Source: Elusimicrobiaceae bacterium (lineage in GTDB: Bacteria; Elusimicrobiota; Elusimicrobia; Elusimicrobiales; Elusimicrobiaceae). Taken from it: a DNA stretch of 64,000 nucleotides. Below the pieces are notes generated by a model, which saw only the letters and a list, made by a program, of their open reading frames with translations, was not told the DNA's origin and did no database searches. The stretch's first letter is position 1. The number at the start of each line of letters is the position of its first letter. Positions 3,169 to 28,193 of this stretch are shown piece by piece. Where the stretch lies: positions 1 to 64,000 of the forward strand of contig JAGCWX010000016.1 in the NCBI GenBank assembly GCA_017961585.1. Direction: 5' to 3'. Made by a program: the position numbers and the translations under genes.

Positions 3169-4131
3169 TTATTTAGATTTTTCTTCACCCACAGGATTTT
3201 CTTTGATCGGTTCTTCAATGGGTTTTTCAGCTGCTTGCTGTGCCGATGGTTCTTCTTGTGTTTTGACGGGGGCCAACTGTATAAGCGGTCCTTGATCGGT
3301 AGGTTTGGGGTCCGCCTGCAAAGGGGAACCCGCCTTCTCTTCCGCGCGCTGTTCTTCAACGGCTTTCCCTAAATTTTCCGCCTCTTGGAGTACTTTTTGC
3401 AAGATCTTTTCCGTCTCACTGGGGGTCTCTTTTTGCCCTACTTTCTTTTCTACTTTTTTCTCATCCTTTTTCACCATTTGTTTTTCTTTGGGAGCTCGGA
3501 CCGTGGATGTATGTTGTCTAAATTGTTCGCGCGCTTCTAATACTTCCAACATCAGCAATACTTGGCGCCATTCCGTTTTTTCCTGGGCGGATAATTGTTC
3601 GTTTTCTGCCAGCAATTCTGCCACTGTTTTGCCGGCGCCGTCCTTCGTTGCGGGGCTGGCGTGAGCCGCCAACAACGCCTTAATCACCGGGGCTGTGTTA
3701 TGCCGGGCGGCCAACAAAAGGGCTTGGTTTTTATTTTCAATTTGCGCGGCCGAATCCCCCCCTTGCTTAGCCAGGGCCAGCACAATTTCCGGCTGCGTGT
3801 TGTAGCGCGCGGCAAGCATCAGCGGCGTGGCGCCGTGTTTATCTTTAGCAAAAGGATCCGCCCCGGCCACAATCAGTTTTTGCAACAATACCGGCTCGGT
3901 GGCATATCGGGCCGCATACGAAAGGGCCGTCTGCCCGGATTTATCGCGTGCGTTTACATCCGCGCCTTTTTCCAAAAGCTGGCGTGTTTTGGACACGTCA
4001 TTTTCTTCCAATGCCCGCATCAACCGCGTTGTTCCGCGCCAATCCACTTCCTGCGCAAAATGCCGGTAGAGTAATCCCCCGGCAACCAAACCGATACACA
4101 CCCCTAACCAAATCCACGTAGTTTTTTTCAT
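3169..4131 (-). CDS. Membrane-anchored ankyrin-repeat protein
   Basis: 320 residues. An N-terminal anchor (about residues 5-22, WIWLGVCIGLVAGGLLY) is followed by roughly four ankyrin repeats between residues 35 and 170, with typical GADVNARDKSGQTALSYAA and GATPLMLAARYNT units. The C-terminal 120 residues are low complexity, rich in Lys, Glu, Pro and Gln. Ankyrin repeats bind proteins; the partner is unknown. The domain order suggests an inner-membrane anchor with a periplasmic repeat domain, though topology is inferred. It is a single-gene unit with a predicted leaderless promoter and a terminator directly after the stop. Confidence 0.85.
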   Translation of the reverse strand: MKKTTWIWLGVCIGLVAGGLLYRHFAQEVDWRGTTRLMRALEENDVSKTRQLLEKGADVNARDKSGQTALSYAARYATEPVLLQKLIVAGADPFAKDKHGATPLMLAARYNTQPEIVLALAKQGGDSAAQIENKNQALLLAARHNTAPVIKALLAAHASPATKDGAGKTVAELLAENEQLSAQEKTEWRQVLLMLEVLEAREQFRQHTSTVRAPKEKQMVKKDEKKVEKKVGQKETPSETEKILQKVLQEAENLGKAVEEQRAEEKAGSPLQADPKPTDQGPLIQLAPVKTQEEPSAQQAAEKPIEEPIKENPVGEEKSK

Positions 4132-5738: not shown

Positions 5739-6434
5739 ATGTTAATCAAAATTGAAATGAGCGAAGAAAACATAGACAAAAATGTAATCGGATTTCCCTC
5801 TAACACCCAACGTTGGGGAATTGATGAAAATGCGACCCTTGAAACCCTTGTACAGAAAATCATTTCAAAGAAATATTTGCCAACGAATATGGATTTCGCT
5901 GATGGTTGGACTTTATACATAAATAATAAACCGATTTTCTACATTAGCAAGTCTTTAAATAAAGTTGATTACTATTTTGACAAGAATCAACTTCTTTCTC
6001 AATTTATAAATACCGGCTCAGTTATTTATTTAAAATTTGTCATAAAAACCAATGAAGCATACAATACTCTAAAATTAAATGCTGATAAAAAAGCAGAAAT
6101 TCACAAACTCGAATTAGAAAAACTCAAAAGTGCATACACCACAGAATATAAAGAAAGCGGTATAGAAAAAATTTACAACAAAATCATAGAATTGTACTAT
6201 ACAAATGATTTTTTTGAAAACTTATCGGAAATCATCTATGCCTTCTCTGGGGCACTAGCCAACAAAACACAAATTAACGTGGAAGAATATTTGGATGATA
6301 TGTTAGAAGGATTATATTTCATCGTACTTGAAGAAAATAAATTTAACAAATTAATTCAAGAAAAATATTCTTGGTTATCTATAGAAAATAGAAAGCTCAT
6401 CCATCTTAAACTGAGCTATAACGCCAACAAATAA
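5739..6434 (+). CDS. Unknown AT-rich protein (231 aa)
   Basis: I do not recognise it. The coding region is strikingly AT-rich beside lysS and uses AT-ending codons, which points to horizontal origin. The protein is soluble and charged, with a likely helical segment at about residues 105-130 rich in Lys and Glu. No signal peptide or catalytic motif is visible. It begins 31 nt after lysS without a convincing Shine-Dalgarno; a second in-frame ATG at 5757 (MSEENIDKN) is an equally plausible start. It is followed by a palindromic-repeat cluster, which may mark the insertion boundary. Confidence 0.7.
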   Translation: MLIKIEMSEENIDKNVIGFPSNTQRWGIDENATLETLVQKIISKKYLPTNMDFADGWTLYINNKPIFYISKSLNKVDYYFDKNQLLSQFINTGSVIYLKFVIKTNEAYNTLKLNADKKAEIHKLELEKLKSAYTTEYKESGIEKIYNKIIELYYTNDFFENLSEIIYAFSGALANKTQINVEEYLDDMLEGLYFIVLEENKFNKLIQEKYSWLSIENRKLIHLKLSYNANK

Positions 6435-9180: not shown

Positions 9181-10272
9181 CTATAGTTTTAACCACTTAA
9201 ATTCTAAGAAGACCGCCACCGAGAAGAGAAGTACCGGTCCCCAACCGGCCAGATAGGGGTTTAAATATCCGTTTTGGCCCATGGAGGTTACCATGGACAT
9301 AATCCACCAAAACGCAAACGCAATGACTAAGGAAGCGATGATATTTAAAATCTTGCTCTTACGCCGCGTGCTAATGGCAAAGGGCATCCCCAGCAAACAC
9401 ATAATGACTGTGACAAACGGGGTAGCCAATTTGGATTGGCGCGCCGTTTCCGCCGCATAATGGGAAAGGCCGCTACGTCCGTAAAAATTGATTTTGGTGC
9501 TCAAAGCGCGGATGCTTAATAATTTGTCTTCTGCCTTACTTACCGCCATTTTTTGCGGAGGAATTGTGAAAGGGGCCTCTTGGCTGACAAAAGATTCTTC
9601 CGTCGTATCCATATCCGTTAAGAAGGTGCGCAAAATGCCGTTTTTGAAAGTCCAGTGGCGGGTGGTTAGATTCCAACTCATCTCTTGAGCAATTACTTGC
9701 GTGGCGATGTTCCACTCGCCATTTTGGTCGTTATAAGTATCCAAGGATACTTGATGCATGACGCCGTTTTTCAAATCCACCTGTTTGGCAAAAAGCATTT
9801 GCGTGGGAGAAATTTTAATCACAACGTCATTTTCCACGTGAGGGTTAAAATTGGCCGACGGTTTAATGCGGGTATAATAAATAGCGTCTGCTTTTAGGTT
9901 CAACCCCGGCACAATAAATTCTTGTACCCCCATTGTAACCAAAACCACCAACAAAATACACGCAATAATGGGTTTAAATAAATCTTTCGGTGCAAATCCG
10001 CCCGCCACGCAAGCGGTCCATTCGCCGTTGGAAACCATTTCTGAAATGACGGAAATCGCCCCCAGCAAACACGCCACCGGCACGATGGTAGTCAGCCAAT
10101 TTGGAAACGTGCACGCGGCATAAACCAGCAAATCCCACACGGTAGTCGTGCCGTTGGAGAGATTTTTTAATTTTTCAAAAATATCCCCCAGCACCACTAA
10201 AGTAGTAAAAATACCCAGCGCAAAAAAGAAAGGTCCCCAAAATTTGCGGGCTATGTAATAGTATAGGCGCAT
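9181..10272 (-). CDS. lptG: LPS export permease LptG
   Basis: 363 residues of the YjgP/YjgQ family. With LptF and the ATPase LptB it forms the inner-membrane transporter that extracts lipopolysaccharide and passes it to LptC/LptA. Layout is typical: two transmembrane helices near residues 15-35 and 55-80, one at 95-125, a periplasmic beta-jellyroll domain (about 130-265), then three helices to the C-terminus. The ATG overlaps the lptF stop (TAATG), so the two are translationally coupled. Assignment of F versus G rests on gene order. Confidence 0.88.
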   Translation of the reverse strand: MRLYYYIARKFWGPFFFALGIFTTLVVLGDIFEKLKNLSNGTTTVWDLLVYAACTFPNWLTTIVPVACLLGAISVISEMVSNGEWTACVAGGFAPKDLFKPIIACILLVVLVTMGVQEFIVPGLNLKADAIYYTRIKPSANFNPHVENDVVIKISPTQMLFAKQVDLKNGVMHQVSLDTYNDQNGEWNIATQVIAQEMSWNLTTRHWTFKNGILRTFLTDMDTTEESFVSQEAPFTIPPQKMAVSKAEDKLLSIRALSTKINFYGRSGLSHYAAETARQSKLATPFVTVIMCLLGMPFAISTRRKSKILNIIASLVIAFAFWWIMSMVTSMGQNGYLNPYLAGWGPVLLFSVAVFLEFKWLKL

Positions 10273-11366
10273 TAGATATTTAACCTCTTCTTCCACAAGT
10301 AGTATCCTGCCCCGATGCCCACAAATACCGGCAGCCACGGGGCCGGGTAAGCCAGTACGCCGTATTTTTTACCCAGCGAGATTCCCAAAGTCATCAGCAA
10401 ATAGAACAAGAAAATAATCACCACGCTAAAGAGCATCCCCCAGCCCTTATTGGTCCTTTTGCCCAGGGAAAACCCAAGCGGACAGCTGACAAACAGCAAA
10501 ATAAGGGGCGAAAGGGCCATCACATTACGCATACTGATTTCGGTGCGGTATTCGTTGCGGGTGGCTTTATCCAGCGGCGTCTTTTTAAGGCGGCGCAACA
10601 ATTTGGTGGTGGTCATTTCCCCTACACGAAGGCGCCGTTGCTGATTGCGAAAAAGCGATATATGCATCGTGTAATCGTCAAAATTGGCCGCAATAAAAGA
10701 GGAGGCATCTTTTCCGTCCAAACGGCGCATCTGCCCGTCGTGCAGTTGCAAGCCGATGGCACTGTCGCTAAGCAGCACCTTACCGCGCGACGCGTTGACC
10801 GTGGTGGATTGGGCCCCGGCATCATTTTTACGCAAGAGCTGTATTTGTTTGGCCTCGCCGGTTTTAGGGTCCAGGTCTTCTACATAAAGTTCCCATTCCC
10901 CCAGGTCCAAAAAAGTTTTAGGTTCTAAATTTACTTTGGTGATTTTGCTGCGGGCTTCGGTACGCAAATTAAGCACTTTTTGATAGCTGTGCGGCGTAAC
11001 CCAATTACTCATAATGACCAAAATAACAGCCAATACAATCGCGCAACCGGCCAGCGGGCGGACGATTTCTTTGAACGAAAACCCCGCCGCGCGCAAGGCA
11101 ATCAGTTCCCCTTGCTCGCTCATTCCCGTTAGCGTAAGCAAAATAGCAATTTGAAAGGCCATCGGTGCGCTTAAGCAAAAAACATCGGGCACCAGGTTTA
11201 ATAAAGAGGAAAACACCCAGCCCCAGCTGGTTCCGTACGTCATGGCCATATTCATCACGCGGATGAAATGGTTCATGAAAATAACAAACGTCAATATCCC
11301 CAATACGCCCACAAACAACGTAATCAAACTCTTGGCAATATAACGTGTAAAAATACGTACATGCAT
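10272..11366 (-). CDS. lptF: LPS export permease LptF
   Basis: 364 residues, same YjgP/YjgQ fold as the following gene: N-terminal helices (about 10-35, 50-80, 95-125), periplasmic domain (about 130-255) and three C-terminal helices. FSFKEIVRPLAGCAIVL and GELIALRAAGFSFKEI are typical of the coupling-helix region that contacts LptB. First gene of the lptF-lptG unit. No Shine-Dalgarno; the ATG is 6 nt after a TAAAAT hexamer. Presence of both permeases supports an LPS-bearing outer membrane. Confidence 0.9.
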   Translation of the reverse strand: MHVRIFTRYIAKSLITLFVGVLGILTFVIFMNHFIRVMNMAMTYGTSWGWVFSSLLNLVPDVFCLSAPMAFQIAILLTLTGMSEQGELIALRAAGFSFKEIVRPLAGCAIVLAVILVIMSNWVTPHSYQKVLNLRTEARSKITKVNLEPKTFLDLGEWELYVEDLDPKTGEAKQIQLLRKNDAGAQSTTVNASRGKVLLSDSAIGLQLHDGQMRRLDGKDASSFIAANFDDYTMHISLFRNQQRRLRVGEMTTTKLLRRLKKTPLDKATRNEYRTEISMRNVMALSPLILLFVSCPLGFSLGKRTNKGWGMLFSVVIIFLFYLLMTLGISLGKKYGVLAYPAPWLPVFVGIGAGYYLWKKRLNI

Positions 11367-11472: not shown

Positions 11473-14400
11473 TTGCTTCTTATGAAGGCATTGCGGCTAC
11501 TATTAGCTTCGGTTTTATTGCTACAAGTATTTTTTGCTCCTATCGCGGGGGCAGAAACCTTGCCGTACAGCTTGGTAGACAAAAACCAATACGAAATTTT
11601 TGAAGAAGAACAACAAGCCCAACTTGAAAAAGAGCTCACGCTGGAAGATCCCCCCGATGACGCCGAACTGCTTAAATACTCCACCGATTTTTGGCGCCAG
11701 GCAGTTACCTCGGTAGAAGGGGCTTATACCCTAGACAAAGAGCCCGAGCCCATCCCCGATTTAACCCTGTTAAACCCCACCTTATCCCTGCCGCTTTACG
11801 GCACCAGCATTGCTTTGACCGGGCGCTACGTACTGGGCGTGAAAATGGCAGCCAAAAAGTTCAAGTCCGACCCAAACAGCACCGTAGACGACCGCAATGA
11901 TCGCTCCGTACAAATGGATCAGCAACTGCAACTCAAAATGCAGGGTAAAATTTTGGACCGCGTGTTTGTGGATATTGACTACGACGATCAACGCGAAGAA
12001 GAAAAAACCATCTCCGTAGCGTACCGCGGCAAACCCGGCGAACTGGTACAATTGGCCGAATTTGGCGATATCACTTTATCTTTGCCTCAAACGGAATTTA
12101 TCTCGTACGAAAAGCAACTCTTTGGGGCCAAAATGCACTTGCAACATAAAAACGCCAACTTGTATTTAATCGGCTCACAAACCAAAGGTTCCAGCAAACA
12201 AAAGCAATTTATAGGAAGCAGCGTTTCGGAAATTGTCTCGCTGGAAGATAAAAACTACATTCGCCGTACGTATTACGATTTGACATTCGGCGGCAACATA
12301 AAACCCACCAAAAAAGCCGACGGTAGCGAAACTTCCATTGTCAGCGGGGTAGCGTATAACGACTGGCGCAGCGCAATGGGTAACATCTCCGCTGGAACCG
12401 AAGAAATTTATTTGGATAATAACGCCACTTCTTACACGTATGTACCGGTAGACAAAACCGCTGAAGATGTATTAGGGGGCGGCGATTATCCCGCCAAGTG
12501 GGAATTACTAACCCGCGGGATTGACTACACCATTGATTACACGCGCGGGATTATCCAATTCAAACGCAATATCAAGGCCGATGCGGCTATCGCCGTGGAT
12601 TATTTGGATACCCGCGGCCAACGCCTCAGCCAAACCATGGGAACGCCCGGGTATATCAAATTTATCAAAACCCCCAACGACCGCTCCGTAGTAACCAGTT
12701 CCGACGAAACCGCCAACAAAATGGAACTAAAAACTTACTACAACATTGGTGCACAAAAAATCACACCCGATAACGGAAAAGGAAATTTTATCCTGCAATT
12801 GCAAGATGCCAACGGTCAGCCGCTAAACAATCCCTATTTTGTTTATCCCAATTACATGGAAATTGATTTCAACGCCGGTATCTTTAATTTGGACTACCGC
12901 CTAGACGACGCAAGACTGTACGATATTACCCCGGTTTCTTCCCGCAACTTAAAATTTAAAATCCAATACCAAAGCACCGTTAAAACGTATTTTGTGGAAG
13001 CGGGCATTGTGGTCCAATCCGAAACGGTCAAGCTAAACGGACGCACCCTGGCACGCAATAACGACTACTATATTGACTATACCTCCGGCTTTATTACCTT
13101 CTACAAAGGCGACACTATTACCGAAAATTCCGTCATTGATATTACTTACGATACCACGGCCGGGGATAATTCCAACAACACCGTGGTCGGCGGACGGTTG
13201 GATTACAAACTTTTTGATAAAGTCGTCATGGGGGCTACTGTCATCAAAGAAGGCGGCGAGAAGCCCAAATCCGTCCCGCAAGTGGGCGCATATTCCAAAG
13301 ATTTGCTCGTATACGGGGCGGACATCAACGGGAAAGATATCAAACTGGCAGAGCCCTTAGCGGTGGACTTTAGTGTGGAAGCCGCACGCAGCGTAAAAAA
13401 ACAAAACCTCTACGGTTACGCTATGATTGACAGCATGAACGACGCTAGTACATTGGTAGGCGGTAGTATGGTATTTAGAGACTGGATTTTTGCCTCCAAC
13501 CCCACCAAGCCCACTACGTTTTTAAATACGTTGCGCTGGGATACGCAAGACGTGCCTTCCTTGCAAATTAACCCTAAAGCCGCTGCCAATTATAACGACA
13601 AGCAACAAGTACTTGTCTTAAATTACGACTTCACCCAGGCCTTGGATTATGATTCCAATTTGGACGAAGTTTCTATCGTCTACCCATTAAGTACCGTGGG
13701 GATTGACCTCTCGGACAAGACCTCGTTCCAGGTAACTATGTTAGGGGAAGAAGGCGGCCCGGAAATGAACTTTACCTTTGGGGATATTTCCGAATATTCG
13801 GACCGCAGCTCCGGCATGACCACGCAGTGCAGCGCGGGCGGTTTAGTACCCAAAACCGAAGATGTATACTGCCGCAACAGCTTGGCCCCGAATGAAGATA
13901 TCGGCTGGGAATTTATCAACCCGGACGGTTCTTCCCAACGTTATAATCCCTTTACGCAAAATGAATATAACTACGAATCTCAGCCCAACGGCCGCATTGA
14001 CACCCAGGATTTAAACGGCAACAGCAAGTATGACCCGGAAAATATCCCTAGCAATGGGAACTTCGGGTTCGCCGGAACGGCTATCGTCCCTGCGCCGGGC
14101 CAACAGGACCCCGGGGTCAATACCACCTGGCAAACTTATTCCGTACCGCTGGAAATTACCAACAAAGCCGAATGGACGGCCGTGCACCATTTGCGTATTA
14201 CCCTTAAAAAAGGCGCCAACAAAAAAGGGCAAATTAAAATCGCTGGGGTGGGGCTCTCCGGTACCGCGTGGAACCCAAACAGCACTCCCAACGTCAACAA
14301 TTTTGCTATATCCGGCATTAACAACGTAGATAACGCCAATTACGAACCCATTTTCAACTCTCCCGGCGACGGGCAACGCGTATTTAACTACTTGTATGGC

Positions 14401-16851
14401 TCGCTTGATAATTACCGCGAAAACAACCAAACCACTACTGCACAAGACCAGGCCTTGCGGATGAAGTTTAACACCGTCAGCACCGATTGTGACGACGAGG
14501 CCTGCTACGCCAACCGCAACTTCCGCACCATGGACTTTAGCCAACACAAAGAGATGCGCTTCCTGCTGCACGGGGCCGGGAAAACCGCCGGTGTTGGGTC
14601 AGAATTTTTCTTAAAAGTAGGCACCGAACAAAATTACGACAAAATTATCGTGCCGATTAACTACGACGGCTGGCGTTTGGTTTCCGTCAAAATGGTGGAC
14701 ACCAATGGAGACGGCATCACCGATGCTTTTAAAAATGTGTCCGATGCTAGTTACGGCGTACGGGTGGATTCCACACGCGCCCCTAACGGGTTGGTCAACT
14801 TCCGCGAAATCAGTTTGATTTTAGCCGGGGTAGAAAAGGCAACTACTAAAGATGAAGACGGCAACATTCAGGTAACCGGCGGGGGTAGCTCGGGCGAAGT
14901 GTGGCTCAACGTCATCCACTTGGCCGAAGCCATCACGCTAACCGGCGATGCTTACAAAGGCGATGTGGTGGTACGTTTGGACAATTGGGGTAGCGCCGGG
15001 GCCAAATACGTCCACAAAGATGCCGATTTTGAAACCCCGCTGGCCGTTTCCAAACAGCAAGAAACCACCCAAGAAGAATATTTTGTAAAGATGACGCGTA
15101 TCAAAGAATTCCCGATGGAGGCCAATTGGACGCGCTCTACCGTAACCACGCCCCTCATTTCGGATAGTTCCAACTACAACACGGTAAGCATGCTTGATAA
15201 AGGCCGCGTGCAAAAAGAATTAGCCGTGGTGCGCGGGAATTTTGTCAAAGAAAACTACCCCAACATCGGCTTGGAATATACGCAAGACAGTACCACCTAC
15301 GATTTGATGCAGCGCAAGGATGATGCCCATACCTACGGGGCTACGCTTTCCCATACAGCAGGGTCCTTCAAAAATATCCAGGCCGGGTATCACTATACTA
15401 CGTCGTCCATAGATTACGCGCGCGAACGGCAAATTGCTTCCGGCGGTACGTATTACAATACGGACGAAGAAACCCAAAAAGTAAACGCAAAGGTTACGTT
15501 CCAGCCGTCCAACCGTTTCCACTTTACCCCCTCCTACAGTTTGAGTAAGAGCAAAGAGGATCGCACCCAATACACGGAACTGACGGAAGATTCCCGCAAA
15601 TACCCCAAAGCCCTTACCCAAAACACCGGGTTTAACTCCACCTGGAAGATTACCAAGTGGTTGGCTCCGTCGGTCAGTTACAACATCAACACGCAGGAAA
15701 ACAACAACTTAAGCAAACGCAAAAGCCACAACAATTTGACTTCATTTGAAATTGGCGAAGTAAAAACCGTTACGCGCAGTTCGGACGGGGGCGTTACATT
15801 AACCTTAAGCGGGAACGAATTACTCCCCAAGAGCAAGCTGTTTAATACGTTGGTGGTTTCTTCCAGCTACCGCTTGCAGGACGCCGACACGTGGGATGAT
15901 GTAGACAGCGGTTTTGATTCCCGCAAAGAGTTGTGGATCCGCGGCTCGCTAAAAGATACCGGGCGCTATGGTTACCGCCGCAGTCTTACCTTGCGCGACA
16001 CCTTTATGTCCACCCAGCGTTGGAGTCCGCTTTCCAAATACCAATTGCACGGTGCCTTGGCCCCGTTGCAAACGCTTACGCTAATCAACAACTTCTCCAG
16101 AACGTTGCAAAATAACGAGCAAACCGGCACAAAATTTGATTCCACCAGCTCAACCTTGCCGGATGCCACGGTATCCATTTCCGATTGGGAAAAGTTCTTC
16201 TTTGCCGGCCGATGGCTTAGCGACACCAACCTCAAGTTGCGCTACAACCGAATCAAGCAAACCAATATTGATGTGGATGAAAAAACCACCACCCAATACG
16301 GCGGCGATTTACGCTTTATGTTGTTCCGCCGCTTTGACACCGTGCTTAACTATACGCGTAACGAGTCCAACACGTGGGATCTGCGCTCCAACTACAGCGC
16401 GCAGCGCACCAAGGATGACGACGTATCTGTGCAGACTTCGTTCTACATCAAATCCTTGCGTGTTACCCCCAAATTACTCTACAATGCACACGATAAATGG
16501 TTGGTACGCGGGCTGATTAGCGAAAGCTCCACCCAGTGGACCCCCAGTTTGAATTTGCGGTGGGACTTTAACTTGCCGCGCGGCTTTACCTTGCCGTTTA
16601 TCAACCGGGTTTACAAAACCACCAACCGTATTATTTGGAACACCACCTTCTCTTACACGGATAAAAAATCCCCCGTGGAAGTAAAAGACAACTACCGCTT
16701 GTTTGATGCCACCACGTCGCTGGATTATGAACTCTCGCAAAACTTACGCTTAACGCTTAGCGGTGGGCTGTCGGTAATGGATCACGCATACGTGGAGAGC
16801 GAAGATTATACTGCCTACAACGTGGCCGCCAATGTTACTGTCCAATTTTAA
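11473..16851 (+). CDS. Giant outer-membrane beta-barrel protein, SprA-like
   Basis: 1,792 residues with a signal peptide (cleavage near GAET, residue 28) and a C-terminal Phe (NVTVQF), as in BAM substrates. Residues about 145-280 follow the SprA pattern known from Bacteroidota: VDIDYDDQREEEKTISVAY, a GDITLSLP segment, KQLFGAKMHLQ. Two later units, RGIDYTIDYTRGIIQFKR and NNDYYIDYTSGFITFYK, are also SprA-style. The C-terminal third alternates like beta strands. SprA is the type IX secretion translocon, usually about 2,400 residues, so this is shorter. No other type IX genes are in the window, so function is unproven. GAGGG favours the TTG start at 11473; ATG at 11482 is an alternative. It overlaps comF by 20 nt. 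Confidence 0.6.
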   Translation: MLLMKALRLLLASVLLLQVFFAPIAGAETLPYSLVDKNQYEIFEEEQQAQLEKELTLEDPPDDAELLKYSTDFWRQAVTSVEGAYTLDKEPEPIPDLTLLNPTLSLPLYGTSIALTGRYVLGVKMAAKKFKSDPNSTVDDRNDRSVQMDQQLQLKMQGKILDRVFVDIDYDDQREEEKTISVAYRGKPGELVQLAEFGDITLSLPQTEFISYEKQLFGAKMHLQHKNANLYLIGSQTKGSSKQKQFIGSSVSEIVSLEDKNYIRRTYYDLTFGGNIKPTKKADGSETSIVSGVAYNDWRSAMGNISAGTEEIYLDNNATSYTYVPVDKTAEDVLGGGDYPAKWELLTRGIDYTIDYTRGIIQFKRNIKADAAIAVDYLDTRGQRLSQTMGTPGYIKFIKTPNDRSVVTSSDETANKMELKTYYNIGAQKITPDNGKGNFILQLQDANGQPLNNPYFVYPNYMEIDFNAGIFNLDYRLDDARLYDITPVSSRNLKFKIQYQSTVKTYFVEAGIVVQSETVKLNGRTLARNNDYYIDYTSGFITFYKGDTITENSVIDITYDTTAGDNSNNTVVGGRLDYKLFDKVVMGATVIKEGGEKPKSVPQVGAYSKDLLVYGADINGKDIKLAEPLAVDFSVEAARSVKKQNLYGYAMIDSMNDASTLVGGSMVFRDWIFASNPTKPTTFLNTLRWDTQDVPSLQINPKAAANYNDKQQVLVLNYDFTQALDYDSNLDEVSIVYPLSTVGIDLSDKTSFQVTMLGEEGGPEMNFTFGDISEYSDRSSGMTTQCSAGGLVPKTEDVYCRNSLAPNEDIGWEFINPDGSSQRYNPFTQNEYNYESQPNGRIDTQDLNGNSKYDPENIPSNGNFGFAGTAIVPAPGQQDPGVNTTWQTYSVPLEITNKAEWTAVHHLRITLKKGANKKGQIKIAGVGLSGTAWNPNSTPNVNNFAISGINNVDNANYEPIFNSPGDGQRVFNYLYGSLDNYRENNQTTTAQDQALRMKFNTVSTDCDDEACYANRNFRTMDFSQHKEMRFLLHGAGKTAGVGSEFFLKVGTEQNYDKIIVPINYDGWRLVSVKMVDTNGDGITDAFKNVSDASYGVRVDSTRAPNGLVNFREISLILAGVEKATTKDEDGNIQVTGGGSSGEVWLNVIHLAEAITLTGDAYKGDVVVRLDNWGSAGAKYVHKDADFETPLAVSKQQETTQEEYFVKMTRIKEFPMEANWTRSTVTTPLISDSSNYNTVSMLDKGRVQKELAVVRGNFVKENYPNIGLEYTQDSTTYDLMQRKDDAHTYGATLSHTAGSFKNIQAGYHYTTSSIDYARERQIASGGTYYNTDEETQKVNAKVTFQPSNRFHFTPSYSLSKSKEDRTQYTELTEDSRKYPKALTQNTGFNSTWKITKWLAPSVSYNINTQENNNLSKRKSHNNLTSFEIGEVKTVTRSSDGGVTLTLSGNELLPKSKLFNTLVVSSSYRLQDADTWDDVDSGFDSRKELWIRGSLKDTGRYGYRRSLTLRDTFMSTQRWSPLSKYQLHGALAPLQTLTLINNFSRTLQNNEQTGTKFDSTSSTLPDATVSISDWEKFFFAGRWLSDTNLKLRYNRIKQTNIDVDEKTTTQYGGDLRFMLFRRFDTVLNYTRNESNTWDLRSNYSAQRTKDDDVSVQTSFYIKSLRVTPKLLYNAHDKWLVRGLISESSTQWTPSLNLRWDFNLPRGFTLPFINRVYKTTNRIIWNTTFSYTDKKSPVEVKDNYRLFDATTSLDYELSQNLRLTLSGGLSVMDHAYVESEDYTAYNVAANVTVQF

Positions 16852-17581
16852 AAATCACTTGCACAAAGCCGCGCAATACGCGCTGCATTTTTTCTTTCCG
16901 CGCACGTGCTTTTCCTGCGGGAAGGATTTGCCGTACGACCGCCAAACTCCCTTGTGCGACGTTTGTGAAAACGGGCTTACCCTGCCCGGCCCGCTGATTT
17001 GCCAGCGTTGCGGCGTGGTGCTAAAATCCGGTGGGGCGCACTGTTACCACTGCCGCGGCAGCAAAGCCGATACCTATAAATGTAAGCTCATCCGCTCGGC
17101 GTGTAATTTTAATGAATTTTCCGGCGGGCTGGTTCACGCTTTAAAATACCACGGGGCCGATTACGTAGCCCCTTATATGGGCCAGTTGATGGCCCGGCGG
17201 TTTAGCTCGCTGGGCGAACTGGCCGACGTCAATTTGGTGATCCCCGTGCCGCTATTTAAAAAGCGCGAGAAAAAACGCGGCTACAATCAAAGTGAATTAC
17301 TGGCCCGCACGTTTGCCACTCAAACCGGGCTTGCGCTAGATAGCACGTCTTTGGTGCGGGTGCGTGATACCGGCTCTCAAACCAAATTGGGGCGTGCCGC
17401 GCGTTTAACCAATATGACTGGCGCGTTTACCGTCAAAGATCCCACCGTTGTAAAAGGCAAAATTATTTTACTGATAGATGATGTAGCTACTACGGGCAGT
17501 ACGCTGGAAGCATGCGCCCAAGCGTTGCGTGCGGCCGGAGCCAAACGGGTTTTGGCTTACACGTTTGCGCGTGAGAATTAA
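16832..17581 (+). CDS. comF: ComF-family phosphoribosyltransferase-like protein
   Basis: 249 residues. N-terminal zinc-finger-like Cys pairs (CFSCGK, CDVC, CQRC, CYHC between residues 27 and 76) are followed by a PRTase domain with KKRGYNQSELLA and the PRPP-binding loop LLIDDVATTGST (about 211-222). ComF proteins assist DNA uptake in competent bacteria; their exact reaction is unsettled. The start lies 20 nt inside the SprA-like gene, so the two are probably co-transcribed. The end overlaps the opposing gene by 4 nt. Confidence 0.9.
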   Translation: MLLSNFKNHLHKAAQYALHFFFPRTCFSCGKDLPYDRQTPLCDVCENGLTLPGPLICQRCGVVLKSGGAHCYHCRGSKADTYKCKLIRSACNFNEFSGGLVHALKYHGADYVAPYMGQLMARRFSSLGELADVNLVIPVPLFKKREKKRGYNQSELLARTFATQTGLALDSTSLVRVRDTGSQTKLGRAARLTNMTGAFTVKDPTVVKGKIILLIDDVATTGSTLEACAQALRAAGAKRVLAYTFAREN

Positions 17582-20910: not shown

Positions 20911-23625
20911 ATGTTAAAATTTAACGGAACCTGGCGCAATTACCAACAGCGTATTTTAGATAGTCTAGAACTTCATTTGGTGGATAACAAAATCCACGTC
21001 GTAGCTGCTCCCGGCGCGGGGAAAACCACACTGGGGCTGGAAGTAATTGCCCGCCTGAATCGGCCCACCCTGATTTTGGCCCCCACCATTACCATCCGTG
21101 CCCAATGGAAACAACGCTTGGCAGCTTCCTTTTTAAACGGACAAAGTCCCGATATTATTTCCACCGATATCCGCCACCCCGGCCTTATTACAATTACCAC
21201 TTACCAGGCGTTATTAGCTGCCTTCTGCGGCAAAGAAGAGCCCACCGAAACGGAAGAAAATGAAGAAGAACTGTTGGAAGAAGAGACCGAGGAAAATGAA
21301 AAAAATTTGACGCGGTTGAAAAAAGAAAAAGCAGATGAAGTAATCGCTATTTTGAAACAAGCCCACATAGATTTATTGTGTTTTGATGAAGCCCATCACT
21401 TGCGTAATGAGTGGTGGAAAGCTTTAGTCTACCTGTTGGACAACCTCAAACCCAAACAAACCATTTCATTGACGGCTACTCCCCCTTATGATGCGGACAC
21501 GGCCGAATGGGATAGATATAGTAGTTTGTGTGGGTCTATTGATGAAGTTATTTCCATCCCGGAATTGGTACAAAATGGGGATTTATGCCCCCACCAGGAT
21601 TTTATCCACTTTTCGTTGTTGCGCAAGACCGAGTCCGAACAAATCAACAAAACTTTAGAACGAATTGCCCAATTTATAGAAGCATTGGCGGATAATGAAA
21701 TTTTGCTCCAAGCCGTAACGGATACGCTCCTGCACGAGAGCGAAGAAGTTATGCTGGATAATCCACCCACTTACGTGGCTTTGGCTTCTTTTCTTAAATG
21801 GGCGGACGCCCCCGTCCCTGAAAGATTTTTAGACTTATTTGGGTTCAGCTCTTTTTATGTGCCTCCTTTTAATTCAAAATACCAAAAACTTTTTTTATCG
21901 TTTGTGCTATTTAAACATCCCACCGGTTTTGCAGCTTCTTACCCGGAGCTAATAGAAAAATTGCGCGGGCAAGCCAAAGCAGCCGGAATTATATCCAGCA
22001 AATCGATATATATTAACGACGGTCCTAAAATCAAACGGCAAATTGCCAACAGCTTAGGAAAATTGGATTCTATCCAAGACATTGTAACCCTAGAAACGGA
22101 ATGTTTAGGCAAACAATTGCGCCTGGTTATTTTGGCCGACTATATTAAGTATGACATCACCGATTGCTCCGCCTTGGGCGTTATCCCTATTTGGCAGACA
22201 CTCAAAGAAAGAAAAAATATTTCTTTAGGGGTTTTGACAGGAACTATCATCTTATTGCCGCAACCGGTAGTGGCCGTATTTAAAGAACGTTTGCAACAAG
22301 CCCAACTGCACGAGCAAGTAACCGCTACCGCGTTTGACAGAGACCCCTATTTCTTCAAAATTACGGTCCCCGGTAGCAAAAAAGCGGGGGTTGTGCGGCT
22401 AATTACTCAATTATTCAATGAGGGATATTTGACTGTATTAGTAGGCACCCAAGCTTTGTTAGGGGAAGGATGGGACGCGCCAAGCATCAACTCGCTTATT
22501 TTATCCAGCACGGTCAGTTCGTATATGCTTTCTAACCAAATGCGCGGGCGGGCTATCCGCAAGGATAAAAACAACCCGGACAAGGTAGCCAATATTTGGC
22601 ATTTGGCCTCCGTTAAAATACCTTCCTTGTTAGAGCGATTAAAACAACACGCCCCCACGGCTTCCAAAACAGAATTTGAATCGGCATTTGAGTTTTTTGA
22701 CTTGGCCCAACTGGAACAGCGCTTCAAGGGGTACGAAGCCCCTGGGATTTATGAGCCGTACTACATTGAAAACGGTTTAGACCGTATTTTACCCACAACC
22801 GTTATGACCCTAATCATGACGCGCGGGCCTCAAGAATCTGATTTCATAGGTATGAATAGCGGCATGAAAGCACGCGCCCGGAACCGCGCCCTTACCCGAA
22901 AACTTTGGGAAAAAGGGTTGCATCTTGCTTACAGCAATCCGGAAAAAGCACTACGCAAAGGTATTCAAACCGAAGCTAAAATGAAAGAATTTTACTATTC
23001 CGGGGGATACTTTAGTATTTTGACCTTTTGGGCTTTTTTGCTAGGAACCCCGGGATGGCTATGTGCACATAACATGGCATACAAACCGGCTATATTCTTT
23101 TTCACTCTTTTTGTTTTGGTGATGCTCAAACCCACTTATAAATTTTTGAAATGTTCCAGCCCCGAAAAAATAATGCGGCAAATTGGCATTGTGGTATTGG
23201 AAACTTTGTCCTATATGGGGCTCATTAAAACCAGTTTACAGCAAGTAAACATTAAATGCAAAAATATTCCTGGGGGAGGAATCTTTTTTTCCGTAACCAA
23301 CGTATCCCCGGAAGAAAACAACCTCATCATCAAATGTATGCAGGAAATTGTGGATCCCATTGAAAATCCGCGCTATATCTTTGTACGTAAAAGCAAATTG
23401 GACTTTTTGAGCACCACCGATTACCACTCCATACCTACTATCATTGGGCAAAAGCAAGCCAACGTACAAGTATTTGAAGGGTTATGGAATAAATACATTG
23501 GCGGCTGTCACGCCGTTTATACCCGTACCCGAGAAGGGCGCAAATTATTATTAAAAGCCCGCAAAGCAGCTTTTTCTTCCTTAGTACGCACTAAAAAGAG
23601 TAAAAAACTCAGCCGCTATGAATAG
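20911..23625 (+). CDS. SF2 DEAH-box helicase with C-terminal membrane segments
   Basis: 904 residues. Walker A APGAGKTT (33-40), DEAH (159-162), SLTATPP (about 189-195), and a second RecA domain with LLGEGWDAPSINSLIL and QMRGRAIRKD (about 540-551), typical of restriction-type SF2 translocases. A Glu-rich insert lies at 108-130. About residues 695-745 form two transmembrane helices, followed by 150 more residues of no recognised fold. The combination of a translocase with a membrane anchor is unusual; a defence or DNA-uptake role is possible but unproven. It begins 30 nt after trmJ and ends 57 nt before buk. Confidence 0.8.
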   Translation: MLKFNGTWRNYQQRILDSLELHLVDNKIHVVAAPGAGKTTLGLEVIARLNRPTLILAPTITIRAQWKQRLAASFLNGQSPDIISTDIRHPGLITITTYQALLAAFCGKEEPTETEENEEELLEEETEENEKNLTRLKKEKADEVIAILKQAHIDLLCFDEAHHLRNEWWKALVYLLDNLKPKQTISLTATPPYDADTAEWDRYSSLCGSIDEVISIPELVQNGDLCPHQDFIHFSLLRKTESEQINKTLERIAQFIEALADNEILLQAVTDTLLHESEEVMLDNPPTYVALASFLKWADAPVPERFLDLFGFSSFYVPPFNSKYQKLFLSFVLFKHPTGFAASYPELIEKLRGQAKAAGIISSKSIYINDGPKIKRQIANSLGKLDSIQDIVTLETECLGKQLRLVILADYIKYDITDCSALGVIPIWQTLKERKNISLGVLTGTIILLPQPVVAVFKERLQQAQLHEQVTATAFDRDPYFFKITVPGSKKAGVVRLITQLFNEGYLTVLVGTQALLGEGWDAPSINSLILSSTVSSYMLSNQMRGRAIRKDKNNPDKVANIWHLASVKIPSLLERLKQHAPTASKTEFESAFEFFDLAQLEQRFKGYEAPGIYEPYYIENGLDRILPTTVMTLIMTRGPQESDFIGMNSGMKARARNRALTRKLWEKGLHLAYSNPEKALRKGIQTEAKMKEFYYSGGYFSILTFWAFLLGTPGWLCAHNMAYKPAIFFFTLFVLVMLKPTYKFLKCSSPEKIMRQIGIVVLETLSYMGLIKTSLQQVNIKCKNIPGGGIFFSVTNVSPEENNLIIKCMQEIVDPIENPRYIFVRKSKLDFLSTTDYHSIPTIIGQKQANVQVFEGLWNKYIGGCHAVYTRTREGRKLLLKARKAAFSSLVRTKKSKKLSRYE

Positions 23626-25782: not shown

Positions 25783-27066
25783 ATGAAAGAAAAATTTTTG
25801 GCTTTGTTGCAACGTAATTACTTGCGCTATCACGACATTGTGTTTTATTTGTTGGTTTTGTGCGTGATTGGCGTAAGCACCTACATTGCTTTGCACGTAA
25901 AACAGGCCTACCAACAGCGCGAACAGGAATTGTTGGACGCACAGCGGGAAATCCCCGTCGTGGAATATACCATTAAACAAAAACCCATTTATGCCGCGTT
26001 GGAAGAATCGGGCTTGCCCCGCCAAGATGTGATCCAAATTGTGGCCAAGCTTTCCGGCGTGGTCAACACCCGCCGCTTAAAACCGCAAGATACCTATTCC
26101 CTTTCCGTAGAAAACGGGCACTTGATTTTGCTCCTGCTCACGCAAGGTTTTACACGTTACTATGTAGCCAACGTAGATGATTATTTAGTAGCCGGTAAAA
26201 GTGAAGTGGAACTAAAAACCCGGATACAAACCGCCGCGGGAACGATCCACAGTTCGCTCTTCCAAACCATGGTGGCAGACGGGCTGCAAGTGCCGCTTAT
26301 CTTGGATTTTACGGATGCTTTTTCGTGGACGGTAGACTTCAATACCGATACCCGCAACGGCGACGAATATACCGCTTTGTGGGAAGAAAATTATACCCCC
26401 AGCGGCGAAGTGGTCAGCCAAGATTTGCTGGCCGCCTCGTACAAAAATGTCAATGAATCCAAGCCCACGTACGCCTTCTATTTTGAAGATGATTTTTACG
26501 ATGAAACGGGCAAAGTCAGCAAAAAAATGTTCTTAAAATCCCCCATCAGCTTCCGCGGGTATCGGATTTCTTCGCACTTTAATCCGGCGCGGTTGCACCC
26601 GATTTTAAAAATCCGCCGCCCGCACCTGGGCATTGATTATGCCGCACCTACCGGCACGCCCGTGCAGGCCGTGGCCGACGGAACAGTCCGTTTTGCGGGA
26701 TGGAAAGGCGGATTTGGAAACTTTGTAGAAATTCATCACGCCAACAATTACACCACTATGTATGGGCACTTAAAAAGTTTTGGCAAAGGTGTAAAAGTAG
26801 GTGCCAAAATCAAGCAAGGTTCTACAGTGGGATATGTAGGCAGCACCGGATTAGCCACCGGGCCGCATTTGGATTTTCGCATCAAAGAAAAAGAGAAATT
26901 TTTGGATTTCTTACACATGAAAAACCGCAACTCGGCCGTGCGAGATATCCCCCCCGAAAAGAAAGCCGAATTTGATGAACTCAAAGAACTTTATTTAAAA
27001 GAATTAAACGCAGCCAAAAAGGCGGACACGGCACCCGCCGAGGAGCAAACCCATGAAAAGGCCTAA
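25783..27066 (+). CDS. M23-family peptidoglycan peptidase, membrane anchored
   Basis: 427 residues from the ATG at 25783. One anchor helix (about 15-37) is followed by a coiled stretch, an OapA/LysM-like N-domain, and the LytM/M23 domain near residues 260-370. Zinc-site residues: H and D of RRPHLGIDYA, and GPHLDFRIK, where the usual HxH is H-x-D, so one ligand is Asp. Other members with HLD exist, so activity is not excluded. It would cut peptide cross-links during growth. The upstream frame to 25744 runs through the hairpin and is rejected. The end overlaps the next gene by 14 nt. Confidence 0.88.
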   Translation: MKEKFLALLQRNYLRYHDIVFYLLVLCVIGVSTYIALHVKQAYQQREQELLDAQREIPVVEYTIKQKPIYAALEESGLPRQDVIQIVAKLSGVVNTRRLKPQDTYSLSVENGHLILLLLTQGFTRYYVANVDDYLVAGKSEVELKTRIQTAAGTIHSSLFQTMVADGLQVPLILDFTDAFSWTVDFNTDTRNGDEYTALWEENYTPSGEVVSQDLLAASYKNVNESKPTYAFYFEDDFYDETGKVSKKMFLKSPISFRGYRISSHFNPARLHPILKIRRPHLGIDYAAPTGTPVQAVADGTVRFAGWKGGFGNFVEIHHANNYTTMYGHLKSFGKGVKVGAKIKQGSTVGYVGSTGLATGPHLDFRIKEKEKFLDFLHMKNRNSAVRDIPPEKKAEFDELKELYLKELNAAKKADTAPAEEQTHEKA

Positions 27067-27625
27067 AAAAATTGCTTTAACCGGTGGACCCAACAGCGGC
27101 AAAACCACCGCTTTGACGGTGCTTAAAGAAACCTTTGGCCCGCAAGTAGAACTGGTGCGCGAAGCGGCCACCATGGTATTTAGCGGCGGATTTCCGCGTA
27201 CGGATAATTCCGTACCGCATATTGAAGCGGCACAAAAAATTATTTTTGTGGCCACGCGCGAAATGGAAGCCCTGGCCGAAGAATATTCACACGCAGATTT
27301 AATTGTGTGCGACCGCGGCACCGTAGATGCTGCCGTGTATTGGCCCAAAGGAATAGAAGATTTTTTCAAAACCATGGGAACCTCCTTGGAAGCGGAATTG
27401 GCCCGCTACGACGCGGTATTGCACTTATCCCCGCCTACCAACCCGGCTTTTTATCAATCCACCCACGTACGTACCGAAAGCTTGGACGAAGCTTTCAAAA
27501 TTGATGAAAAGATTATGCAAATTTGGAAAAATCACCCTAAACGCTTTGTTATTGAAGGCAAAGAACACTTCTTTGAAAAAGCAGAGCTGATTAAAGATTT
27601 TGTAGAAAAAATTATTAAAGGATAA
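27053..27625 (+). CDS. P-loop ATPase/GTPase (AAA_28-like), copy 1
   Basis: 190 residues. Walker A GGPNSGKTT (11-19), a Walker B-like region DLIVCDRGTVDAAVYW (about 82-97), and lid residues HVRTESLDEAF. It resembles small kinase-like P-loop proteins (AAA_28/Ttd14 type) whose substrates are mostly unknown. It is followed after 4 nt by a close paralogue with the same motifs, so a recent tandem duplication is clear. The start lies inside the M23 gene. Confidence 0.8.
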   Translation: MKRPKKIALTGGPNSGKTTALTVLKETFGPQVELVREAATMVFSGGFPRTDNSVPHIEAAQKIIFVATREMEALAEEYSHADLIVCDRGTVDAAVYWPKGIEDFFKTMGTSLEAELARYDAVLHLSPPTNPAFYQSTHVRTESLDEAFKIDEKIMQIWKNHPKRFVIEGKEHFFEKAELIKDFVEKIIKG

Positions 27626-27629
27626 CTCT

Positions 27630-28193
27630 ATGAAAAAAATTGTTTTAACTGGCGGACCTAGCGGCGGGAAAACAACCGCGCTGTCCATTCTAAAAGAAAC
27701 TTTCGGCAAGAAAATTGCCCTCGTGCAAGAAGCGGCTACCTTGATCTACAGCGGTGGTTTTCCCCGTACGGACAATAGCCCCATTCACATTGTGCACGCG
27801 CAAAAAATTATTTATTACACGGTCAAACAGTTGGAAGAATTGGCCGAAAAAACCTCGGATGCTAACGTAATGGTGTGCGACCGCGGCACCATTGACGGCG
27901 CAGTATATTGGCCCTACGGACCGGATGATTTTTTCAAAAATATGGAGTCCAGCTTAGAGGCCGAACTGGCCCGCTACGATGCGGTGATTCACCTTTCCCC
28001 ACCGCCAGAGAAAGATTACTATCAGGCCACCAATGTACGCACGGAAAACTTGCAACAGGCCTTTGAAATTGACGACAAGATTTTAGCCATTTGGGCCAAG
28101 CACCCTAACCGTTTGGTCGTCCCACGCGAAAAGCATTATTTTGAAAAAGCGGAGATTATTAAAAACTTCGTTGAAAATTTGCTGGATAAATAG
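27630..28193 (+). CDS. P-loop ATPase/GTPase (AAA_28-like), copy 2
   Basis: 187 residues, colinear with the preceding gene over its whole length (for example [28 protein letters not shown] and [13 protein letters not shown]). Walker A is GGPSGGKTT. Differences are spread along the protein rather than in one region, which suggests two functional copies, maybe acting as a heterodimer. A good GGATAA/CTATG context lies between the two. Substrate unknown. Confidence 0.8.

Follow-up and report, generated by a model that had tools for sequence, protein, structure and literature searches.

The gene studied here occupies positions 11473-16851 of the forward strand in a 64,000-nucleotide stretch of DNA from an Elusimicrobiaceae bacterium (contig JAGCWX010000016.1; this whole stretch is called the window below), and it encodes a large protein related to SprA, the outer-membrane translocon of the type IX secretion system (T9SS). 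It is a single unbroken open reading frame (ORF) of 1,792 codons, whose stop codon ends at 16851. Two starts are available, TTG at 11473 and ATG at 11482; because relatives align at the equivalent of the latter and begin there, ATG 11482 is the likelier one. A signal-peptide-like sequence opens the protein, which terminates in VTVQF, the final QF being invariant in an alignment of nine relatives. The features of the gene are as follows.

11473..16851, + strand: gene of 1,792 codons for a SprA-like outer-membrane translocon (TIGR04189, PDB profile search, Foldseek of both halves)
11482..11559, + strand: hydrophobic N-terminal segment, putative Sec signal peptide MKALRLLLASVLLLQVFFAPIAGA (read from the sequence; kept in relatives)
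11692..12276, + strand: N-terminal SprA signature region, GTSIALTGR ... DIDYDD ... FGDITLSLPQTEFISYEKQLFGAK (TIGR04189 model 58-254; near-invariant columns)
12955..13329, + strand: second SprA signature region NNDYYIDYTSGFITFY (TIGR04189 model 585-712)
14890..16848, + strand: predicted C-terminal barrel of some 28 long beta strands in succession, with VQF at its end (AlphaFold model m08f184a2bc7e; PDB match 8gl6_A)

An earlier sequence-only reading of this stretch had claimed that the N-terminal third follows the order of the SprA signatures, that the C-terminus resembles a large barrel ending in Phe, and that the host, if a member of the Elusimicrobiota, might carry a shortened exporter of this type. 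All of this agrees with what we found. TIGR04189 (NCBIfam) matches the protein with an E-value of 2.9e-29, in a collinear alignment that pairs residues 74-268 with model positions 58-254 and a second stretch with positions 585-712; the same model matches all nine Elusimicrobiota relatives scanned, the best at E 3.1e-41. The nearest named relatives of the host are Elusimicrobiaceae from rumen and gut, and the protein is indeed short, with 1,792 residues against the 2,403 of SprA from Flavobacterium johnsoniae. The hidden Markov model search that the same reading had suggested as a check gave a significant match whose 101.1 bits do not reach the curated cut-off of 200 bits.

More distant comparisons lead to the same family. 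When a profile built from nine full-length Elusimicrobiota relatives was compared with the PDB, its sole match was F. johnsoniae SprA (6h3i/6h3j, E 1.9e-17), in three collinear stretches. SprA was not found in the PDB with the single protein as a phmmer query, and profiles from half-length, gut-heavy alignments returned no PDB match at E 0.1; since the mixed full-length profile did find SprA, we do not count this last negative against homology. A match to a phage tail tube model (NF052337, E 8e-5) was discarded, as it covers a short strand-rich stretch and lies below the cut-off.

SprA is a 36-strand barrel with a lateral opening. The protein was folded by AlphaFold as two overlapping halves rather than as a whole chain. 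The C-terminal half (mean pLDDT, the predicted local distance difference test, 80.7) is modelled with about 28 consecutive long strands, to which the less certain N-terminal half (mean pLDDT 68.9) adds several. Searched against the PDB with Foldseek, both halves place SprA chains at ranks 1-4: the C-terminal half matches 8gl6_A best, at E 8.4e-18, with the next unrelated structure at 4.9e-7, and the best match of the N-terminal half has E 6.8e-29, with the next unrelated one at 6.7e-4. It is this ranking and these E-values, not a full superposition, that support a SprA-type fold for the two predicted halves. Altogether, the protein is a genuine but divergent SprA/Sov homolog; its score below the TIGR04189 cut-off means that it is not an equivalog by that rule.

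Carriers and cargo across the phylum

We surveyed two sets of genomes, one of 41 relatives and one of 199 genomes of the phylum, 143 of them of good quality. The SprA-like gene is present in 41/41 relatives and in 166/199 phylum genomes (135 of the 143 good ones), mostly as a single copy, and the PorV family of carriers (NF033709) is found in 40/41 and 168/199, respectively. Thirty-three phylum genomes lack a SprA match, and the 20 of these that are listed all fall in one family, f10, which we infer from the size of its genomes to be Endomicrobia-like. Many of the SprA-less f10 genomes measure 0.4-1.4 Mb, and they are largely the same genomes that lack PorV; two f10 genomes retain SprA remnants only (E about 1e-10). 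In three small genomes of this family (G057, G131, G099) the gene is fragmented or, in one copy, interrupted by an in-frame TAG, reflecting either ongoing decay or assembly error. Among the 199 genomes, 161 have both SprA and PorV, 26 have neither, five have SprA only and seven PorV only, the counts for genomes not individually listed being inferred from tallies. Fisher's test on this co-occurrence gives 2e-21 over all genomes and 4e-9 within f10, values that overstate the association because the genomes are related and the events are not independent.

Proteins that could travel through such a translocon are also present. Type-A C-terminal domains (CTDs) recognised by TIGR04183 occur above cut-off in all 16 genomes of the free-living-type family f2, with 2-22 per genome. 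A profile of these f2 CTDs matches the solved CTDs of PorZ (E 1.1e-12) and PorU (E 2.3e-6), as well as two CTDs whose structures were determined within the SprA translocon (7.2e-5 and 2.1e-3). Carriers and cargo are paired in the genome: for at least 67 of the 149 CTDs listed, a PorV gene follows on the same strand at a distance of no more than 1 kb, and among the matches listed PorV is never found upstream of the CTD or on the opposite strand. PorV-family matches number 9-36 per genome in f2 versus about one in the gut genus of the host. Some CTD matches terminate enormous open frames, such as those at G026:C6:189665-189931 (13,077 aa), G025:C20:113856-114101 (6,998 aa) and G034:C15:674507-674740 (6,824 aa).

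The host genome itself contains one such pair. Its PorV (G000:C33:51382-52365, 88.8 bits), which also matches UPF0164 (PF03687), begins about 35 bp after a gene for a 1,806-residue cargo with four FlgD_ig domains (C33:45930-51347). The last 150 residues of this cargo are matched by the PorZ model (E 2e-7), and the profile of its family aligns with the f2 CTD profile with 99.4% probability and E 1.8e-21, a score that is raised by one sequence (L182) shared by the two profiles. The searches for PorV and for type IX C-terminal signals that the sequence-only reading had proposed were both productive, with PorV found in the host and its relatives, and type-A CTDs abundant in the free-living relatives next to one divergent CTD in the host. 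The pair is conserved in the gut genus with the same gene neighbours, and it is followed immediately by a Tad/Flp pilus operon in which Pfam identifies TadE, RcpC and a secretin; pair and operon together lie at L145:3931-16815, equivalent to G000:C33:45930-58814. Related pilus genes were found by BLAST beside the pair in G015, G028, G040 and G031 (loci L208-L211), and the association is seen again in further families of this order; the names of further pilus genes in these four genomes are our reading of them. Two candidates were rejected. A second PorV match in the host (G000:C32:44753-46018, L146:8750-10018) belongs to the FadL family (PF03349, E 1e-61), and a CTD-like match at 6234-6347 of the window (E 0.15) falls within a 231-residue protein lacking a signal peptide. 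A FadL-family protein that the PorV model also matches is a source of false PorV counts.

The motor and the sortase gave a different picture. GldL and GldM, which had also been put forward as targets, were not recognised: GldM was found in 0/41 genomes and GldL as one marginal match in 199 (G070:C31:149120-149470, L207; E 1.8e-5, below cut-off), while the PorU-type C25 peptidase (PF01364) was found in 0/41, all in searches that included no positive control genome. As far as these profile searches can tell, GldL, GldM and PorU are likely absent; we grade this below certainty because of the missing control and because the low SprA score shows that parts of the system may diverge. PorU is dispensable for some T9SS cargo.

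Gene neighbourhood and other genes of the window

The SprA-like gene sits in a conserved context, since the order lptG/lptF (divergent)-sprA-comF is maintained in two families of the order. The neighbouring genes are these.

9181..10338, - strand: lptG-like permease, conserved context (PF03739, E 5e-67; synteny)
10272..11366, - strand: lptF-like permease, divergent neighbour, conserved context (PF03739, E 8.7e-71; synteny)
16832..17581, + strand: comF-like gene, overlapping the 3' end of the SprA-like gene by 20 bp (TIGR00201, E 4.7e-29; synteny)

Elsewhere in the window we noticed an ankyrin-repeat protein at 3169-4131, in what is a gut bacterium, a helicase of 904 residues at 20911-23625 with weak similarity to XPB and to restriction-type helicases, and two neighbouring AAA_28 (PF13521) genes of like size at 27053-28193, possibly a duplication.

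Export route and competing explanations

We are fairly confident that the SprA-family translocon exports type-A CTD cargo with the assistance of PorV-family carriers. For the steps of this export we reason by analogy with F. johnsoniae, where CTDs attach to loops of PorV inside the pore of SprA in an energy-free loading step, and where energy delivered by GldLM pulls out the PorV-cargo complex (PMC10994853). The type-B cargoes of the same bacterium have dedicated carriers, encoded next door, that hold them at the surface (PMC12618676). In Elusimicrobiota, Sec would deliver the cargo to the periplasm, a PorV sitting at the lateral opening of SprA would receive its CTD within the pore, and carrier and cargo would exit together, sideways, to the cell surface. 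There, PorV would probably remain bound and anchor the cargo, much as type-B cargo in Flavobacterium is held by SprF-type carriers, because each cargo typically has its own downstream PorV gene and no PorU was found; with no sortase to release it, PorV could not be used again, which would account for the presence of one carrier per cargo. Extraction might be powered by an undetected motor, by another envelope motor, or by binding and folding outside the cell. The host would represent a pared-down version, with a single SprA, a single PorV and a single large cargo beside the Tad pilus operon.

Several observations weigh against this export model. Three of its components are recognised with difficulty: at 101.1 bits the SprA-like protein has about half the score that TIGR04189 demands, the host PorV is just below the NF033709 cut-off (88.8 versus 90 bits), which the PorV of relatives exceeds by far, and the CTD of the host cargo scores E 0.15 with TIGR04183 or escapes it, so that it takes PorZ/PorU-type models or the f2 profile to recognise it. 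The template modelling (TM) scores of both halves against SprA reach no more than 0.30-0.37, a consequence of folding the chain as truncated halves. PorV matches are kept in seven genomes without SprA, and the joint loss of SprA and PorV is concentrated in one family instead of being spread over many independent events. Finally, extraction in F. johnsoniae requires the GldLM motor, and none is recognised here.

This last point divides two versions of the model. It is conceivable, and we propose it tentatively, that the route works without motor and sortase, each CTD cargo being drawn out and anchored permanently by its own PorV, and that gut lineages keep a single translocon, carrier and cargo, the last of these serving the Tad pilus or surface attachment. 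We give similarly guarded credence to a complete T9SS whose GldLM-, PorU- and SprE-like parts are too divergent for the NCBIfam and Pfam models. If SprA itself scores 101 of 200 bits, other parts may have drifted past detection; the searches for GldM, GldL and PorU had no positive control genome, the marginal GldL match of G070 (E 1.8e-5) could be such a part, and extraction in F. johnsoniae needs energy (PMC10994853). However, models for PorV and for CTDs, taken from these very libraries, match repeatedly in the same genomes in which GldL yields one marginal match in 199 and GldM none in 41, and the one-to-one pairing of cargo and PorV is consistent with a missing sortase.

A role unrelated to type IX export, for example in the transport of lipopolysaccharide or other envelope components, with PorV and CTD proteins exported by other means, seems improbable to us. 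The conserved lptF-lptG genes beside sprA-comF in two families would fit it, but they are divergently transcribed in a separate operon, and comF is equally linked without having an envelope role. Moreover, both halves match SprA, with LptD complexes appearing as weak matches only, and the presence of the SprA-like gene tracks that of PorV. No more credible is that the translocon of the gut genus is a decaying relic of a mostly non-functional system, as the fall in PorV matches from f2 to the gut genus and the fragmentary or missing SprA of Endomicrobia-like genomes might suggest, given that almost every gut genome has an intact ORF, with 57-80% identity and hundreds of conserved columns, and that the remaining cargo-PorV pair is retained with the same gene neighbours.

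Comparison with known systems

T9SS genes have been stated to be absent outside the Fibrobacteres-Chlorobi-Bacteroidetes (FCB) phyla (PMC11285876, 2024), and in the literature we searched, whose scope lay outside subscription journals and preprints, we found no paper describing a T9SS in Elusimicrobiota; databases may already label the genes. The SprA-type system reaches past the phyla thought to confine it, in an apparently stripped-down form. Its phylum-wide presence would imply either an earlier origin of the translocon or an old transfer. Were the GldLM motor truly missing, these bacteria could reveal what SprA and PorV manage alone, and whether the motor was a later addition; the small genomes with a single cargo offer a simple test case.

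Compared with SprA/Sov of F. johnsoniae and Porphyromonas gingivalis, the Elusimicrobiota protein has collinear motifs, SprA as the top fold match of both its halves, and a gene that likewise resides in genomes encoding PorV and proteins that end in type-A CTDs. It differs in having some 600 residues fewer than the F. johnsoniae protein, in scoring half the curated value, in belonging to a non-FCB phylum, and in that GldL, GldM and PorU were not found alongside it. The carrier of the host resembles both the PorV/PorQ family (NF033709) and UPF0164 (PF03687). Whereas the PorV of Bacteroidota serves many type-A cargoes, Elusimicrobiota can carry dozens of copies, in many cases one for each cargo. 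In this they recall the type-B system of F. johnsoniae with its SprF/PorP-like carriers (PMC12618676), where a cargo gene is likewise followed by that of its own carrier, which presumably anchors it; the Elusimicrobiota carriers, however, are of the PorV/PorQ family and the CTDs are type-A-like (TIGR04183/PorZ). The Elusimicrobiota arrangement is thus one in which type-A-like CTDs and PorV-family carriers are joined to the gene pairing of type-B systems.
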